Below, piece by piece: positions 9,078-55,971 of a DNA stretch of 64,000 nucleotides. The position numbers were made by a program, and so were the translations under genes. The first letter of the stretch is position 1. Each line of letters begins with the position of its first letter. The stretch spans positions 1 through 64,000 of the forward strand of contig SHVY01000001.1 of assembly GCA_009694045.1 (NCBI GenBank), given 5' to 3'. Under the pieces are notes generated by a model. It saw only the letters and a list, made by a program, of their open reading frames with translations. It made no database searches and was not told the DNA's origin. The DNA is from Alphaproteobacteria bacterium (GTDB lineage: Bacteria > Pseudomonadota > Alphaproteobacteria > SP197).

Positions 9078-9150
9078 AAGTGTCGCGGTTTCGAAGTTCG
9101 CCCTCGAGGTCTGCCGCGACGTATAGCGAACTTCGAAACAACGACGCTAG
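9078..9150. repeat. Family A palindromic repeat, copy 1
   Basis: AGTGTCGCGGTTTCGAAGTT at the left and AACTTCGAAACAACGACGCT at the right are inverted copies around a short centre. The same palindrome occurs at 10225-10302 and at 53514-53591. Its right CTAG end contains the stop codon of the MBL-fold gene on the minus strand. The rest of the 8886-9077 gap shows no gene. Confidence 0.7.
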
Positions 9151-10031
9151 GCGCCGCCGCCGCCGTCGATATAGCGAAAGCGGAAGGCCCCGGCGTCCGG
9201 GTCGATCCAGCCGATCGACGGCGACGGGAAGTGCGCGGTCATGACCAGATCACGGGTCGCGACGCAGGCTTCCAGGAACGCCCGCCGGGTGATGCGGGCC
9301 TGGGCCTGGTCCGCATCGAAGACCGGACTCCATTCCGGGCGGGCGCATTGGATGGGGCTGTGCATCAGGTCGCCGCACATGACCGCGCCATGGCCGCGCG
9401 AGGCGAAGCGCACCGCCACATGACCCGGCGTATGCCCGGGCGTCGGCTCCAGGCGAACCTGGTCGTCCAACGCATGGTCCATCTCGACCAGCACCGCCTG
9501 GCCGGATTCCAGGATCGGCGCCACGCTCTCGGCGTACACCTGGTCCGGATCGCTCCGGGAGATGTGCTCCGCATGCTCGACCTCGCGGCGGGCCAGCAGG
9601 TACTTGGCATTGGGAAACGTCGGCACCCAGCGGCCGTCGCGCAGCCGGGTATTCCAGCCGCAATGGTCGAGGTGCAGGTGGGTGCAGAACACGTAGTCGA
9701 CCGTCTCCGGCGCGACCCCCGTCGCGGCCAGATCGGACAGGTAGGTGCCGCCCGTGCGCTGGTTCCACCGCGGATCGGACAGCAGGGTCTTGTCGTTGCC
9801 GTAGCAGGTGTCGATCAGGATCGTGTGGTGGCGGGTGCGGATCACGTAGGACTGGTACGGGATGATCATCTTGCCCGTGTCCGGGCAGATTGCTTTCGGC
9901 ACCAGCCAGGGACGCAGCGGCGCCAGATTCTCCGGCGTCGCCTCGGCGAACCACTCGGACGGCAGGGCGGACGGCCCCTCCTCCTCGATCACCCGGTCGA
10001 CCCGGATGTCTCCCAGCTCCAGCGCTGCCAT
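9147..10031 (-). CDS. MBL-fold metallo-hydrolase
   Basis: The 294-residue protein carries the dinuclear metal motif 'THLHLDHCGW' (HxHxDH) near residue 110, 'GHTPGH', 'CGDLMH' and a late His in 'MTAHFPSPS', so all expected metal ligands of a metallo-beta-lactamase fold are present. Size and motif spacing resemble lactonase/alkylsulfatase-like soluble hydrolases, including N-acyl-homoserine-lactone lactonases, but nothing fixes the substrate. The ATG at 10031 has GGAG about nine bases upstream; the longer ORF-track start runs into repeat DNA and is rejected. It is divergent from argD, with a composite repeat between them. Confidence 0.85.
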   Translation of the reverse strand: MAALELGDIRVDRVIEEEGPSALPSEWFAEATPENLAPLRPWLVPKAICPDTGKMIIPYQSYVIRTRHHTILIDTCYGNDKTLLSDPRWNQRTGGTYLSDLAATGVAPETVDYVFCTHLHLDHCGWNTRLRDGRWVPTFPNAKYLLARREVEHAEHISRSDPDQVYAESVAPILESGQAVLVEMDHALDDQVRLEPTPGHTPGHVAVRFASRGHGAVMCGDLMHSPIQCARPEWSPVFDADQAQARITRRAFLEACVATRDLVMTAHFPSPSIGWIDPDAGAFRFRYIDGGGGA

Positions 10032-10137
10032 GGCGTGCTCCAAGGTTCCAGCGTACCCTGCCACTCTACCCCACGCACAGGCTGGCGCGGTCGTTGACTC
10101 GGGCGGGAGAGCCGCCGATACTCTCGCCCTTTTTCCA

Positions 10138-10302
10138 AGTGTCCCAATTCCGGAATTCGCCCGACCTCGCGGCAACCCTCGGAGCGAATTCCGGAATCGA
10201 GGGGATACTGGCGAATCATTGATTCTAGTGTCGTTCTTGGTTTCGAAGTTCGCATCCAAGGGTTGCCGCGTGACAGGGCGAACTTCGAAACCACGACACT
10301 AG
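10138..10302. repeat. Composite palindromic element B-A (165 bp), copy 1
   Basis: Two palindromes stand side by side. B (10138-10209) starts AGTGTCCCAATTCCGG and its right arm is degenerate. A (10225-10302) runs from CTAGTGTCG to CGACACTAG with inner arms GGTTTCGAAGTTCGC and GCGAACTTCGAAACC. The whole unit recurs in inverted orientation at 53514-53677. It fills most of the 10032-10339 gap between the MBL gene and argD; no ORF or transposase is present. Confidence 0.8.
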
Positions 10303-15217: not shown

Positions 15218-16789
15218 TCACCCGAGAGGTGTCAACTCCCCCTTCTCGGCCATCTCGCGCAGGCGCTTCTTGCGGATCTTGCCGCTGGCGGTGGCCGGGA
15301 AGCCGTCGACCGCGAACAGGCGCGCCGGCACCTTGAAGCGGGCGATGCGCTCGCCGCAGAACGCGGCGATTTCGGCGGCGGAGGTTGCGGCCGACAGGCG
15401 GATCGCCGCCGCCACCGCCTCGCCGTAATAACCGTCCGCGATGGCGAAGACCGCGACCTCGGCGATCGCCGGGTGCCGGGCGAGCACGCGCTCGACCTCT
15501 ACCGGATAGATGTTCTCGCCGCCGCGGATGATCATGTCCCCCAGCCGTCCGGCGGCGAGCTGCAGCCGTCCCGTGGGCGTCAGGCGGCCGAGGTCGCCGG
15601 TCTTGAGCCAGCCGTCGGGCGCCAGCACGGCTTCGGTCGCACGGAGATCGCCGTCGTAGCCGAGCATGATGCCGACGCCCCGCGCCTCCACCTGGCCCAC
15701 CGCGCCGATGGGTAGCAGGGCGCCGGTCGCCGGATCGGTGATGCGGGCCTCCATCCCCGGAAGCGGCGGCCCCGCGGTTGCGAACCGCTCGGGGTCGTCG
15801 GGGGTCGGGCAGGCCACCAGAGTGCTGGTCTCGGTCATGCCATAGACCTGCGCCAGGCCGGGGATCGGGAAGTCGCGCGCGCACGCTGCCAGCATGCCCG
15901 GATCGGCATCCGCCCCGCCGCAGGTGCCGACCCGGAGGGTGCCGAGGTCGAAGCGGCCCCGGTTGGGGTGCTGCAACATGGCGAGGTAGGAGGTCGGCAC
16001 GCCGGTCAGGACCGTGCAGCGCTCGGCCGCGACGATCCGCAGCATCTCCTCCGGGTCGAACGCCGGGACCCCCACGTAGCACGCTCGACTCTGCAGGGCA
16101 CCGGTCACATTCATGATGCAGCCGGCACAGTGGAACAGGGGAATGATCGAGGTCCAGCGATCGCCCTCGCCGATGCCGAGCCGGGTGGCCGATCCCCAGG
16201 AATCGCCCAGCATCGCGCGGTGGGTCAGCAGCGCGCCCTTCGGAAACCCGGTGGTTCCGGACGTGTAGAGCAGGCCGGCCACCGCCCCCGCCGCCACCTC
16301 CGGCAACGGCGCCCGCGACGCTCCTCCCGCCTCGACCAGCCCGGCGAAGTCGCCGTCCCTCTCGTCCGCGCCGAACGGGACCACCAGCTCGAGCACCGGC
16401 AACCCGGGCCGCAGCTCCGCGACCATGGCGAGGTAGCGGTTCGAGCGGAACGACGGTGACAAGAACAAGGCGCGGGCGCGGGAGCGGCCAAGCGCGTCCC
16501 CCAGGTCCTCGCGCCGATAGTGGGTGTTGAGCGGCACCAGCACCAGGCCGGCCAGGGCCACCGCCATCTGCACGATCGGCCACTCGATGCGGTTCTCGGC
16601 CAGCAGCGCCACCCGGTCGCCGGGTCGCAAGCCGCGCTCGATCAGGGCGCGGGCGACGGCGCTCGACGCCCGCCACCAGTCGCCATAGGTCGCGCGCCGG
16701 CGGATCCCCGGGAACACCAAGGCCTCGCGTTCGGGGGTCGCCCGCGCGGCGGCGGCCAGCGCGGCGCCCAGGGTCGGAAACGGGCTCAT
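15218..16789 (-). CDS. AMP-dependent acyl-CoA synthetase/ligase
   Basis: The 523-residue protein is a complete ANL-superfamily ligase: P-loop 'LLYTSGTTGFPKGALL' near residue 172, 'YGMTETST' near residue 307, hinge 'DLGRLTPTGRL', 'RGGENIYPVEVE' and the catalytic lysine in 'TASGKIRKKRLRE' near residue 507. It activates a carboxylic acid to an acyl-AMP and then acyl-CoA. The ATG at 16789 overlaps the TGA of the RND pump gene; the 1,129-residue ORF in the track is a read-through of pump DNA in another frame. Coupling to an efflux pump is unusual and might mean the same aromatic or fatty acid is either exported or activated. The substrate is unknown. Confidence 0.88.
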   Translation of the reverse strand: MSPFPTLGAALAAAARATPEREALVFPGIRRRATYGDWWRASSAVARALIERGLRPGDRVALLAENRIEWPIVQMAVALAGLVLVPLNTHYRREDLGDALGRSRARALFLSPSFRSNRYLAMVAELRPGLPVLELVVPFGADERDGDFAGLVEAGGASRAPLPEVAAGAVAGLLYTSGTTGFPKGALLTHRAMLGDSWGSATRLGIGEGDRWTSIIPLFHCAGCIMNVTGALQSRACYVGVPAFDPEEMLRIVAAERCTVLTGVPTSYLAMLQHPNRGRFDLGTLRVGTCGGADADPGMLAACARDFPIPGLAQVYGMTETSTLVACPTPDDPERFATAGPPLPGMEARITDPATGALLPIGAVGQVEARGVGIMLGYDGDLRATEAVLAPDGWLKTGDLGRLTPTGRLQLAAGRLGDMIIRGGENIYPVEVERVLARHPAIAEVAVFAIADGYYGEAVAAAIRLSAATSAAEIAAFCGERIARFKVPARLFAVDGFPATASGKIRKKRLREMAEKGELTPLG

Positions 16790-19700
16790 GGAAAGGTCGT
16801 GGCTCCACGCAGGAACAGCCCCAGCAGCGGGGGAACCACGGCGAGGGTAAGAACCGCCGACAGCGACAGGCCGCCCACCACCACCGATCCCAGGCCGCGA
16901 TAAAGTTCCGATCCGGGTCCCGGCACGATCACCAAGGGCAGCATGCCGGCCACACTGGTCAGGGTCGACATGAAGATCGGCCGCAGACGGTCGTACGTGG
17001 CGGCGAGGATCGCCGCCTCCGGACCCATGCCCTCGTTGCGCCGATGGTGCAGGGTCTGGTGCACCAAGAGGACCGCGTTGTTCACCACCGTGCCGACCAG
17101 GACGATGAAGCCGAGTTGGGTCAGCATGTCGAACGGCTGCAGCACGAACAGGTTCAGGACCGCGAGCCCGGCGACCCCCCCGGCGGTCGCGAGCGGCACC
17201 GACAGCATGATGATGAGCGGATAGAGGAAGCTCTCGAACAGGATCGCCATCACCAGGAAGACGACGGCGACGCCGATCAGGAAGTTGATCTGCATGGCGC
17301 TCCAGGCGCGGGCCAGCTTGTCGGCGGTGCCGGACAGCGTCAGGCGCACGCCGGGCGGCAGCCCGGCCTCGCGCAGGGGCGCGATGACGTCGCGCTCGAC
17401 CCGCAGGATGGCCTCCTCCAACGGCATCGCCGCGGCCGGACGGATCTGCAGCGTCACCGTGCGCTCGCGCTCCTCGCGGCGGATGATTTGCGGCCCTGCC
17501 GTGACGGTGACCCGGGCCAGGGATTCGACCGGTAGGACTTCGCCAGACGGCGTCACCACGGGCAGCCTGCCGATCTCCTGGGTCGAGCCGACCCGCCCGC
17601 CCGGGCTGCCGAGCAGCACGTCGAGCCGCTCGCCCTCGAATTCGGATTCCGTCACCAGAAGCCCGTCGTTGAAGGCATCGATGCTGGCCGCGAGGTCTCC
17701 GGCGCTGACCCCGGCATCCGCCAGGCGAACCCGGTCGGGCTCCACTCTGATCTCGGGGGCCCCGAGATCGAGCCCGGGATTGGGCCGAACCTGGTGGCCG
17801 TCGGCCAGCGGCAACGTCGCGACCACGAGCCCCATGGCGCGGCCAGCCAGCGCGAAGATCGTGTCGAGGTTCGGCCCGCTGATGTCGAGATCGATCGAGC
17901 GGGCGCCGCCGACGTTGCGACCGAACAGCGAGGCCTGCCCGACGAAGCCGAACGTCCCGGGCTCGCGCCGGATTGGCGCGGAGAGGATCGGCGCCAGCTC
18001 CCTGGCCCGCGCCGGGTCCAGGGCCGTGGCGCTGATCCACGAGCCGCCGGGCCTCGCGATGATGAAGAAGTTGTCGATCAGCGGCTGGCCGTCGGCCGAT
18101 TCCGTCGGGCCGCCGGCTGTGCCCCAGAACGGCCGGATTTCCCCCTCGATGCGGGCGGCGATGCCATCGACGGCCGCGAGATTGTACCCGGGCGGCGCCT
18201 GGACCGAGCCGAACACCATGTTGCGGTTGCCTTCCGGCAGGTACTCGAGCCCCGGCAGGAACAACCAGGTCATCAGGGCCGTGGCTCCCGTCAGGCTCGT
18301 CACCAAGAGGATCGCGAAGGTCCGGCTGCGGATCGCCGCGCGGGTGATGGCCATGGTCGCGGCGGCGAAGCCGTCGGCGAACGCGTCGATGATCGGCAGG
18401 CGGATCGGCGCGGGCGTCGGACCCTTGCCGAGGAGCCGCGCCGCGAGCGTCGGGATCAGGGTCGCCGCCATGACCAGGGCAAGGACATTCGACACGGCGA
18501 TCGCCACGGCGATGTCGCGGAACAGCTGCCCGACCTCGTCGGTCATGGCGAGAATTGGCACGAAGACCGCGACCGTGGTCAACGCCGAGCCCAGCACCGC
18601 GCCCCACACCGCGCGGGTCCCCACCTCCGCCGCCGTGACCGGGTCGGAGCCCCGTTCGCGCTGGCGAAAGATGTTCTCAATCACGACGATGCCCGAATCC
18701 ACCAGCATCCCGACCGAAAACGCGATCCCGGCCAGGCTCATCACGTTGATGGTGCGCCCCAGCGCCGTCATCGCCACGAAGGTCCCGACGATCGAGACGG
18801 GAATCGCCAGGCCCGCCACCGCCGTAGCACTCGCCGAGCGCAGGAACAGCAGCAGCATCGCCGCCGCCAGGACGCCGCCCTGCCAGATGTTGTCGGTCAC
18901 CAGTCGGATCGCCGACCTGACGTAGGTCGTCTCGTCATAGGTCTGCGTCATCGTCAGACCCGCATCCGGCAGCACGCCCCGCGCCATGTCCGCGACCGCG
19001 ACGCGCACGCCGTCCATCACCTCAAGGACGTTGGCCCCGGTCTCGCGCACAACGTTGAGGGCGATCGCGGGTTCGCCCCGCACGCGCATGAACATCTCGG
19101 TGTCGCGCAGATCGAAGCCGACCTCGGCGATGTCGCCAACGAGCACCCGACCGATGCGTGACGACACCGCGTCCTGCCCGCTCCGCAGCACCACCTGATC
19201 CACGTCGGCGAGGGAACGGAAGCTCCCCTCGGCCCGCACCACGTAGCGCCGCTTGCCCTCGTCCACGTAGCCGGCGGTGGCGGAAGCATTGGCGTCGCGC
19301 AGCGCCGCGCGAACTTCCGAGATGGTCAGGCGATACCCCGCCATGCGGTAGGGATCGACCACCACCCGCACCTCGCGGCCGCTGCCGCCGAACACATTGA
19401 CCCGGGCCACCCCGGGCACCCGCTCCAGGCGATCCTTGATCACGTCATCGACGAAGTCGCCGTAGGCGATGATCGGCCTCTGGTTGCCCGCCGCCGCGCG
19501 CAGCATGAACCACGCGATCGGGCTGTCCTCGTTGCCCGCCGCCGAAAGGGTCGGCTCGTCGACCTCGTCGGGATAGTCGGCGATGCCGTCCAGGCGGTTG
19601 GCGACCAGCAGCAGGGACCGATCCATGTTGCGGTCCAGCGCGAACTCGAGCGTGATGCTGGCGCTGCCGGGCCGCGCCTGGCCCGAGATGCTGGTCACCC

Positions 19701-53513: not shown

Positions 53514-53677
53514 CTAGTGTCGTGGCTTCGAAGTTCTCCCTATCACGGGGCAACCCTTGGACGCGAACTTCGAAACCAAAAAAAGACACTAAAATCAATT
53601 ACTTGCCAGTGTCCCGATTCTGAAATTCGCTCCGATGGTTACCGCGAGGTCGGGCGAATTTCGGAATTGGGACACTA
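53514..53677. repeat. Composite palindromic element A-B (164 bp), copy 2, inverted
   Basis: A (53514-53591, CTAGTGTCG to GACACTA) and B (53608-53677, AGTGTCCCGATTCTGAAATT to GGGACACT) occur in the reverse order of 10138-10302. Read on the minus strand they match that element closely, including the spacer TTGATT. It lies between the thioesterase gene and the SOS operon; only the last 109 bases before imuA are free of repeat. Confidence 0.8.
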
Positions 53678-53742: not shown

Positions 53743-53757
53743 GAACAAAATAAGAAC
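53743..53757 (+). promoter_or_regulatory. Alphaproteobacterial LexA box (SOS operator) upstream of imuA
   Basis: GAACAAAATAAGAAC is the direct repeat GAAC-N7-GAAC, the LexA-binding site known from alphaproteobacteria. It overlaps the likely -10 region; TTGACT at 53718-53723 is a candidate -35. LexA bound here would block the imuA-imuB-dnaE2 operon until DNA damage. AGGAG before the imuA ATG serves as ribosome site. Confidence 0.8.
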
Positions 53758-53786: not shown

Positions 53787-54509
53787 ATGGTATCCGTGAC
53801 CCGACCGACCGTTCTCGAGCTGTTGCGTGAACGCATCCTGCGGCTGGAGGGGCTGCCGCCCCTGTTGGCGGGCAGGGAGCAGGCCGCACCCCTCGGTGTG
53901 CCCGAGGTCGATGCGGCCCTGCCCTGGCGGGGCTTGCCCCGGGGCGCGGTGCACGAGGTCGTGGCGCTGGATCGCGGCGCCGGCACCGGCTTCGCGGCAC
54001 TCCTGCTCGCCCGGCTGGCGGGGGCGGGGCCGATTCTGTGGTGCTCGCGGCGGGGGGATCTGCACGCTCCCGGCCTCGCCGCCTTCGAGGTGGCGCCCGA
54101 GCGGGTGATCGCCCTCGCCGCCCCTTCGCCCGAGGCGCTGCTGTGGGCGATGGAGGAGGGCCTGCGGTCGGGCGCGCTCGGCGCCGTCCTCGGCGAGGTG
54201 TCGGCGCTCTCGCTCACCGCCGCCCGCCGGCTGCAGCTCGCGGCCGCAGGTGGGGCGACCCCGGCGATCCTCCTGCGCTCCGCCGGAGCCGAGGCTGGGG
54301 CGAGTGTCGCGGTGACCCGCTGGCAGGTGGCGGCACGGCCCTCGGCAACTTCCGAGCCAGGGGTGGGTCCGGTTCGTTTCCAGGTGACGCTCGCCCGCTG
54401 TCGCGGCGGCGCACCCAACGCATGGCTGATGGAGTGGGACGATGCGACGCTACGTTGCCCTGTGGCTGCCGACGCTGCCGACCGACCGGCTCGCCCGGAA
54501 GCGGCCTGA
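53787..54509 (+). CDS. imuA: ImuA, RecA-like protein of the SOS mutagenesis cassette
   Basis: The 240-residue protein contains 'WRGLPRGAVHEVVALDRGAG' near residue 47, a degenerate RecA/SulA-like fold, and 'SALSLTAARRLQLAAAGG'. The ImuA family is recognised chiefly by its position directly before imuB and dnaE2. It supports error-prone translesion synthesis. Its 3' end overlaps imuB by 68 bases, a feature common in this cassette. The promoter carries a LexA box. Confidence 0.88.
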   Translation: MVSVTRPTVLELLRERILRLEGLPPLLAGREQAAPLGVPEVDAALPWRGLPRGAVHEVVALDRGAGTGFAALLLARLAGAGPILWCSRRGDLHAPGLAAFEVAPERVIALAAPSPEALLWAMEEGLRSGALGAVLGEVSALSLTAARRLQLAAAGGATPAILLRSAGAEAGASVAVTRWQVAARPSATSEPGVGPVRFQVTLARCRGGAPNAWLMEWDDATLRCPVAADAADRPARPEAA

Positions 54510-55971
54510 GTCCAAAATATCCACGCCCTTGGCTTTGGTCGCCCCGGCGACTGGCGGGATGCGGCTCGCGGCCGTGAACGCGGCGGCCGCGGGGGAAGGC
54601 TGCGTGCCGGGGATGTCCCTCGCCACGGCCCGGGCGCTGCTGCCGGCCCTCAAGATCGCCGCCGCCGATCCGCAGGGCGATGCCCGGGCGCTGGCCGCGC
54701 TGGCCGACTGGTGCCGCCGTTTCACCCCTTGGGCCGCGACCGACGGGGCGGACGGGCTGGTGCTCGACATCACCGGCTGCGCCCGGCTGTTCGGGGGCGA
54801 GGACCGGCTGCTCGATCGGCTGCTCGCGGCCTTGCGCCGCTTCCGCATCGCCGCCCGGGCCGGGCTCGCCGACACCCCGGCCGGGGCCTGGGCCCTCGCC
54901 CGCTTCGGGGGCGGCGGGGTCGGCGACCGGACGCTCGCCCCGCCGGGCGGGACGGGGGCGGCCGTCCTGCCCTTGCCGGCGGCGGCGCTGCGGCTTCCCC
55001 CCGCCGTGGTGGCCGAACTCGCCCGCCTGGGCCTCGCCCGGGTCGGGGATCTGGCGGCCCTGCCCCGGGCGCCGCTCGTGGCCCGCTTCGGCGCGGACGT
55101 GCTCAGCCGGCTCGACGCGGCGCTCGGCGAGACCACGGAGCCGATCTCGCCCCGGTCGGAGAGCCGGCCCTGGATCGCCCGCCACGCCTGGTCCCTGCCG
55201 GTGGCGACGGCGGGTGTGGTCGAGGCGGCGCTTACCCGCCTGCTCGTCGGTCTCGGGGCCGAACTGGCGGAAGCCGGCCTTGGCGTCCGGCGGCTCTGCC
55301 TCCGGCTGTTCCGGGTCGACGGCGGCATCGTCCGCCTGACCGTGGGCGCCGGGCGGCCGACCTGCGATCCCGGCCATTTCGCCCGGCTGTTCGCGCTCCG
55401 CTTCGAGGGGCTCGACCTCGGCCTCGGGGTCGAGGCGATGATCCTCGAGGGCCGCGAGCCGGCGCCGCTGGGCACCATACAGCGCGAGCTCGGCGCCCGC
55501 CCGGGCCGGGCGGAGGAGGAGCTTCCCCGGCTCCTCGATCGCCTGGCGACCCGGCTGGGCGAGGGTGCGATCCGACGGTTCGAGCCGGTCGCGAGCCACC
55601 TGCCCGAGCGGTCGGTGCGGGCCGTGCCGGCGATGCTGCCTAGCGCCGTTCCGGCGACGGTGTGGCCGCGCGTGGGCGCGCGTCCGCTCCGACTGTTCCC
55701 CGCGCCCGAGCCGATCGAGGCGGTGGCGGCGATTCCCGACGCGCCGCCGCCGCTGTTCCGCTGGCGCGGTCGGGTGCACCGCGTCGCCCGCGCCGAAGGG
55801 CCGGAGCGCATCGCCGCCGAATGGTGGCGGCGGCGGGAGCCATCGGCCGACGACTTCCGCGACTACTACCGGGTGGAAGACCGCGACGGCGGCCGGTTCT
55901 GGCTCTACCGCCGCGGACCGTATCGGGTCCAGGGGTCGGCATCGTGGTTTCTGCATGGGCTGTTCGCGTAA
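54442..55971 (+). CDS. imuB: ImuB, Y-family DNA polymerase-like protein
   Basis: The 509-residue protein starts 'YVALWLPTLPTDRLARK', keeps the Y-polymerase palm order ('VLDITGCARLFGGEDRLLDR' near residue 108, 'RAGLADTPAGAWALARFGGG') and has a C-terminal region ending 'WFLHGLF'. ImuB proteins lack some catalytic acids and act as a hub that binds the beta clamp, ImuA and DnaE2. The match to a dinB-like domain plus cassette position supports the name. A clamp-binding peptide was not assigned. Confidence 0.9.
   Translation: MRRYVALWLPTLPTDRLARKRPESKISTPLALVAPATGGMRLAAVNAAAAGEGCVPGMSLATARALLPALKIAAADPQGDARALAALADWCRRFTPWAATDGADGLVLDITGCARLFGGEDRLLDRLLAALRRFRIAARAGLADTPAGAWALARFGGGGVGDRTLAPPGGTGAAVLPLPAAALRLPPAVVAELARLGLARVGDLAALPRAPLVARFGADVLSRLDAALGETTEPISPRSESRPWIARHAWSLPVATAGVVEAALTRLLVGLGAELAEAGLGVRRLCLRLFRVDGGIVRLTVGAGRPTCDPGHFARLFALRFEGLDLGLGVEAMILEGREPAPLGTIQRELGARPGRAEEELPRLLDRLATRLGEGAIRRFEPVASHLPERSVRAVPAMLPSAVPATVWPRVGARPLRLFPAPEPIEAVAAIPDAPPPLFRWRGRVHRVARAEGPERIAAEWWRRREPSADDFRDYYRVEDRDGGRFWLYRRGPYRVQGSASWFLHGLFA

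Follow-up and report, generated by a model that had tools for sequence, protein, structure and literature searches.

A two-hairpin repeat with IS630-type ends in an alphaproteobacterial genome is very probably a miniature transposable element

The Correia elements (NEMIS) of Neisseria occur in a long form of about 155 bp with an internal IHF site and in a shorter form without the internal part, and in both cases are intergenic, form strong hairpins and carry terminal inverted repeats with TA at the ends (PMC2229807, PMC10969869). RUP of Streptococcus pneumoniae, a 107-bp MITE of IS630-Spn1, has terminal repeats that match an IS630-family element and uses a TA target (PMC2229807). IS630 elements themselves duplicate TA on insertion (PMC2170065), and REP sequences are given as 20-40 bp (PMC3733652). 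Here we describe an alphaproteobacterial repeat, the B-A unit, whose architecture is most like that of the Correia elements. It differs from them in its host class, in its CTAG target, its two complete hairpins, its out-of-register inner arms and its 74-bp short form; the terminal sequences also appear to be different, those of the unit matching IS630 relatives. RUP shares the type of terminal repeat and the TA target, but has another length and host, and a double-hairpin layout is not reported for it in PMC2229807. The IS630-family insertion sequences (Shigella IS630 and Bradyrhizobium-type relatives) have the same terminal repeats and CTAG target, whereas the unit has no transposase gene. 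REP, REPIN and BIME repeats likewise consist of palindromes paired in a fixed arrangement, but are of another size, with other ends and another transposase. A literature search of partial coverage found no prior description of the repeat family, which is apparently undescribed; it is a new family of a known kind of element, tied to a named transposase family.

The stretch of DNA analyzed here, referred to as the window, comprises 64 kb and contains two copies of the unit (Table 1). The initial annotation had placed a pair of palindromes at 10138-10302 and the same pair, reversed, at 53514-53677. Both were present at these places, and the copies aligned over their full length of 165 positions and are 87% identical (E-values of 3e-52 against the genome and 1e-53 in a self-search of the window). 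The lone A copy proposed at 9078-9150 is a real hairpin, but not a plain copy of the arm pair of A, as both of its arms are of the outer type described below. Its CTAG end is the source of the TAG stop codon for a metallo-beta-lactamase-fold gene, 9147-10028(-). This gene lies on one side of copy 1; on the other, an argD-like aminotransferase gene is paired with an argF-like carbamoyltransferase gene (+). Copy 2 is flanked by a thioesterase-like gene (-) and by a plus-strand run with an ImuB-like gene (54442-55971), whose neighbors we infer from position and length to be imuA and dnaE2. Both copies thus sit between divergent genes. Between copy 2 and the ImuB-like run, the sequence GAACAAAATAAGAAC at 53743-53757 resembles the alphaproteobacterial LexA box (GAAC-N7-GAAC) and was left intact by the insertion.

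Table 1 Features of the B-A unit copies in the 64-kb window and loci of the C-D repeat family.
Feature	Position	Strand	Basis or remark
B-A unit, copy 1	10137..10302	+	sequence, genome search, flank comparison
Element proper, copy 1	10139-10299		between TA duplications
TA duplication, copy 1, left	10137-10138		AA (decayed)
TA duplication, copy 1, right	10300-10301		TA
B hairpin, copy 1	10138..10209	+	left/outer arm with IS630-type spacing; right/inner arm +3 nt
IHF-like site, copy 1 spacer	10212..10224	-	AATCAATGATTCG, 8/9 consensus positions
A hairpin, copy 1	10226..10301	+	left/inner arm +4 nt; right/outer arm with IS630-type spacing
B-A unit, copy 2	53514..53677	-	reverse orientation, 87% identity to copy 1
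A hairpin, copy 2	53515..53591	-	
IHF consensus match, copy 2 spacer	53593..53605	+	AATCAATTACTTG, 9/9; sole perfect match in the 64-kb window
B hairpin, copy 2	53608..53677	-	inner arm likewise with 13-nt spacing
Single A-like hairpin, short form	9078..9150	.	13/13 spacing
C-D family loci	L018:1365-1500; L052 (C57:7516-7651); L058 (C32 about 16750-16896); L059; L031		

Between a flanking CTA and a flanking TAG, the intact unit consists of GTGTC, the B hairpin, an AT-rich spacer of about 15 bp, the A hairpin and GACAC. Each hairpin is 72-77 bp long. Conservation ends at these boundaries, and the flanks of 20 copies are unrelated; the CTAG has decayed at one end in a few copies, including copy 1. 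A and B are diverged inverted relatives of one another, given that the unit and its reverse complement match at about 71%. The two arms of B change together (CCGGAA/TTCCGG versus CTGAAA/TTTCAG).

A search of the genome (3.02 Mb in 83 contigs, 92% complete) yielded a count of 20 intact B-A units with 80-100% identity to copy 1, two further units interrupted by later insertions (C57:7441-7725 and C69:14591-14900), one copy that has collapsed internally (C63:27081-27179), and some 20 single hairpins of A-like, B-like or hybrid type. The pairing of A and B is therefore far from unique to this locus, and the 20 full-length copies with sharp ends uphold the earlier proposal that the pair moves or is copied as a unit, as do the same layout in other genera and an orthologous site that lacks the whole unit, both described below. 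A control pattern read backwards matched neither this genome nor any of 384 others, which excludes chance. The copies are intergenic, and their gene context varies (divergent, convergent or tandem). Identity between pairs of the 20 units averaged 88% (range 79-98%), suggestive of old activity, and four units of another genome, G381, averaged 95%. The end motif was detected in 9 of 385 genomes of the class. Seven other genera have units built in the same way, with lengths of 160-168 bp, and 130-133 bp in one genus. The latter, in G070 (L074, L082 and L087), are relatives of the two-hairpin unit having the same asymmetry of outer and inner arms in most arms. No match to the unit was found in a plasmid collection. 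At L061 (C69:14668-14828), the spacer of an A-B unit is split by an insert with a CTTCGACAGGCTCAGGGTGAGG-type palindrome.

The outer ends of the unit read C-TA-GTGTC, and we compared them with 80 named IS630 transposase loci, many from Bradyrhizobium and others from further alpha- and betaproteobacteria. Most of these loci with resolvable ends have CTAGTGTC..GAAgTTCGc at CTAG. The B end matched best the right end of L161 from Bradyrhizobium sp. BR13661, TAGTGTCCCGATTCTGAAGTTCGC, at 23 of 26 bases, and the A end matched L187 and L192 at 21 of 26; when the 17 inner bases were shuffled, 0 of 20000 sequences matched as well at either end. In G081, a transposase gene of the IS630 family ends in CTAGTGTCCTGAACCGGAAGTTCG. 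The unit thus has terminal inverted repeats matching IS630 and a TA target duplication, is short (165 bp) and multi-copy, and is too short to encode a transposase, all features of an IS630-derived MITE. Tenzen and Ohtsubo (1991, cited in PMC2170065) reportedly found IS630 to prefer TA within CTAG. Most copies have CTAG at both ends, and the orthologous empty sites have a single CTAG-like site; as the site is palindromic, a TA duplication looks the same as a 4-bp CTAG duplication. Given a CTAG target and a stop codon that survives the insertion, TAG stops would be expected at unit ends, and in 7 of the 20 units one end coincides with the TAG stop of a neighboring open frame. That the target often coincides with this stop and preserves it suggests how insertions between genes can be tolerated.

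To look for empty sites, we used the joined flanks of seven loci out of nine prepared (2268 bases). The joined flanks of the G381 unit L092 are continuous in G304 at 78% identity, with the whole unit absent; those of the single hairpin L097 are continuous in G304 at 79%, and those of the single hairpin L070 in G101 at 71%, where ACTCTAGC is found exactly. These are same-genus comparisons at 71-79% identity with G381, which belongs to another genus than the genome studied here; empty sites were found for that other genus only. No IS630 with matching ends was found in the 92%-complete assembly, in which there are two DDE_3 loci; both were rejected as parent elements, L031 because its ends differ and L032 because it is fragmentary. 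With no matching transposase in this assembly the copies look old, and those in this genome are probably immobile. DDE_3 also had no match in the carriers G029, G137, G154 and G161, and the transposase is consequently postulated from other genomes.

The two arms of each hairpin differ in the distance between GTG and the GAANTTCG core. Among scorable arms of this genome and of G003, G029, G070, G081, G137, G154, G161 and G381, the distance was 13 nt in 65 of 68 outer arms, as in nine of nine IS630 ends, and 15-18 nt in 64 of 68 inner arms, a few of the inner values hinging on the choice of spacer edge. A 13-nt spacing was found in 3 of 20 A inner arms and in the B inner arm of copy 2. The spacer itself is, by its match to the consensus, an IHF-like site. 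Against the IHF consensus WATCAANNNNTTR, 7 of 20 units scored 9/9 and seven more 8/9, so that the unit shares, at the level of a consensus match, the central IHF site of the long Correia form. Three sites in the window scored 8 or 9, and two of these are the two unit spacers. The match is weak (6/9) in some G381 copies, and because copies within one genome share ancestry they do not count as separate lines of evidence for IHF. A gene for IhfA, scoring above the family cut-off, lies at C69:16213-16497, and IHF would be predicted to bind at the spacer.

The above considerations strongly favor the B-A unit being a non-autonomous miniature element of the IS630/Tc1-mariner type, and we hold this reading with high confidence. 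An IS630-type transposase supplied in trans would have excised the unit at its two outer ends (GTGTC) and integrated B, spacer and A in one piece at the TA of a CTAG site, with duplication of the TA. With their register shifted by 2-5 nt, the inner arms are predicted to fail as transposon ends, and A and B would remain joined because the terminal-repeat spacing of IS630 is preserved in just one arm per hairpin, the outer one. The IHF-like site may bend the element such that the outer ends meet, and both this site and the arm asymmetry may keep the pair together. The arm spacing provides a simple, testable rule for how two hairpins could travel as one.

The short form is a hairpin of 71-75 bp that combines a B-type outer end with an A-type one, both at canonical or near-canonical spacing; such hybrids numbered six in the listed set from this genome, three in G381 and two in G154. 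We infer that the short forms are internal-deletion products that kept both working ends. A broader proposal is that selection has maintained the double-hairpin layout across the class as a transposition device, in which the shift of 2-5 nt keeps the inner arms from serving as ends and the IHF-like site at the centre joins the outer ends, such that the hairpins move only as one, with the 74-bp short form a second, independently mobile state. We advance this tentatively and consider it somewhat doubtful. As the host class is a different one, the likeness to Correia elements, with an IHF site in the long form and none in the short, would represent a convergence that merits testing.

Single hairpins bear on whether A and B are independent one-hairpin MITEs that inserted side by side by chance, the pair itself never having been a transposition unit. 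Each hairpin does have CTAG-GTGTC ends on both sides, and single hairpins exist with empty sites of their own; nevertheless, order, orientation and spacer are the same throughout 20 copies as well as in other genera, the inner arms are out of register, one empty site lacks the whole unit, and many short forms are hybrids of a B-outer and an A-outer arm and not pure A or pure B, all of which make chance adjacency highly unlikely. In favor of an origin as REP/REPIN- or BIME-type repeats, with a RAYT (Y1) transposase as the mobilising enzyme, the unit has two palindromes at fixed positions about an IHF-like site, a layout that some enterobacterial BIMEs share. The size of the unit hairpins and the CTAG/TA ends matching IS630 render such an origin extremely improbable, and it was rejected when no Y1_Tnp (PF01797) was found in this genome (G000) or in the carriers G029, G154 and G161.

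The unit might instead be a conserved regulatory or structural DNA or RNA element under selection, such as a terminator, an RNase III site or an IHF bending site, that was mobile only formerly. Strong hairpins, intergenic placement and the coordinated changes in the B arms would agree with this, and such effects are known for Correia elements (PMC10969869), but the gene context is variable and divergence within the genome is broad, leaving selection for such a role a highly unlikely account of the family. A known RNA family was rejected, as there was no Rfam match in the window. Individual copies of the IS630-type element could have been co-opted for regulation.

The inverted orientation of the two copies had also led to the suggestion that they could support recombination that flips the 43-kb segment between them, and their 87% identity speaks for it. 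A flip is possible in principle, but nothing specific to this segment was found to support one. The two copies share no identical stretch longer than 19 bp, many equivalent copies exist genome-wide, with a third unit on the same contig at C47:75783, and nothing marks the segment or links it to a recombinase. Relatives preserve the local argD-argF order, and G003 preserves the 48.8-53.0 kb block, but the neighboring genes of both copies are at unrelated loci in relatives, and there is accordingly no interpretable synteny signal for inversion. We consider this proposal very improbable. The thioesterase gene and argD, which here mark opposite ends of the segment, lie 5 kb apart in G001, a genome of the same family (G001:C67:21086-28857, L283), a single case and an unexplained one.

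A second two-palindrome repeat of about 140 bp, the C-D family (CTAGTG[GC]TTTGACTCCGACGGATC...TTTGTGTCGGACCACTAG), often adjoins the A-B unit and was once found inside one. The latter copy, at C57:7516-7651, lies exactly at a CTAG within the unit, indicating that CTAG is used as a target by this second family as well.
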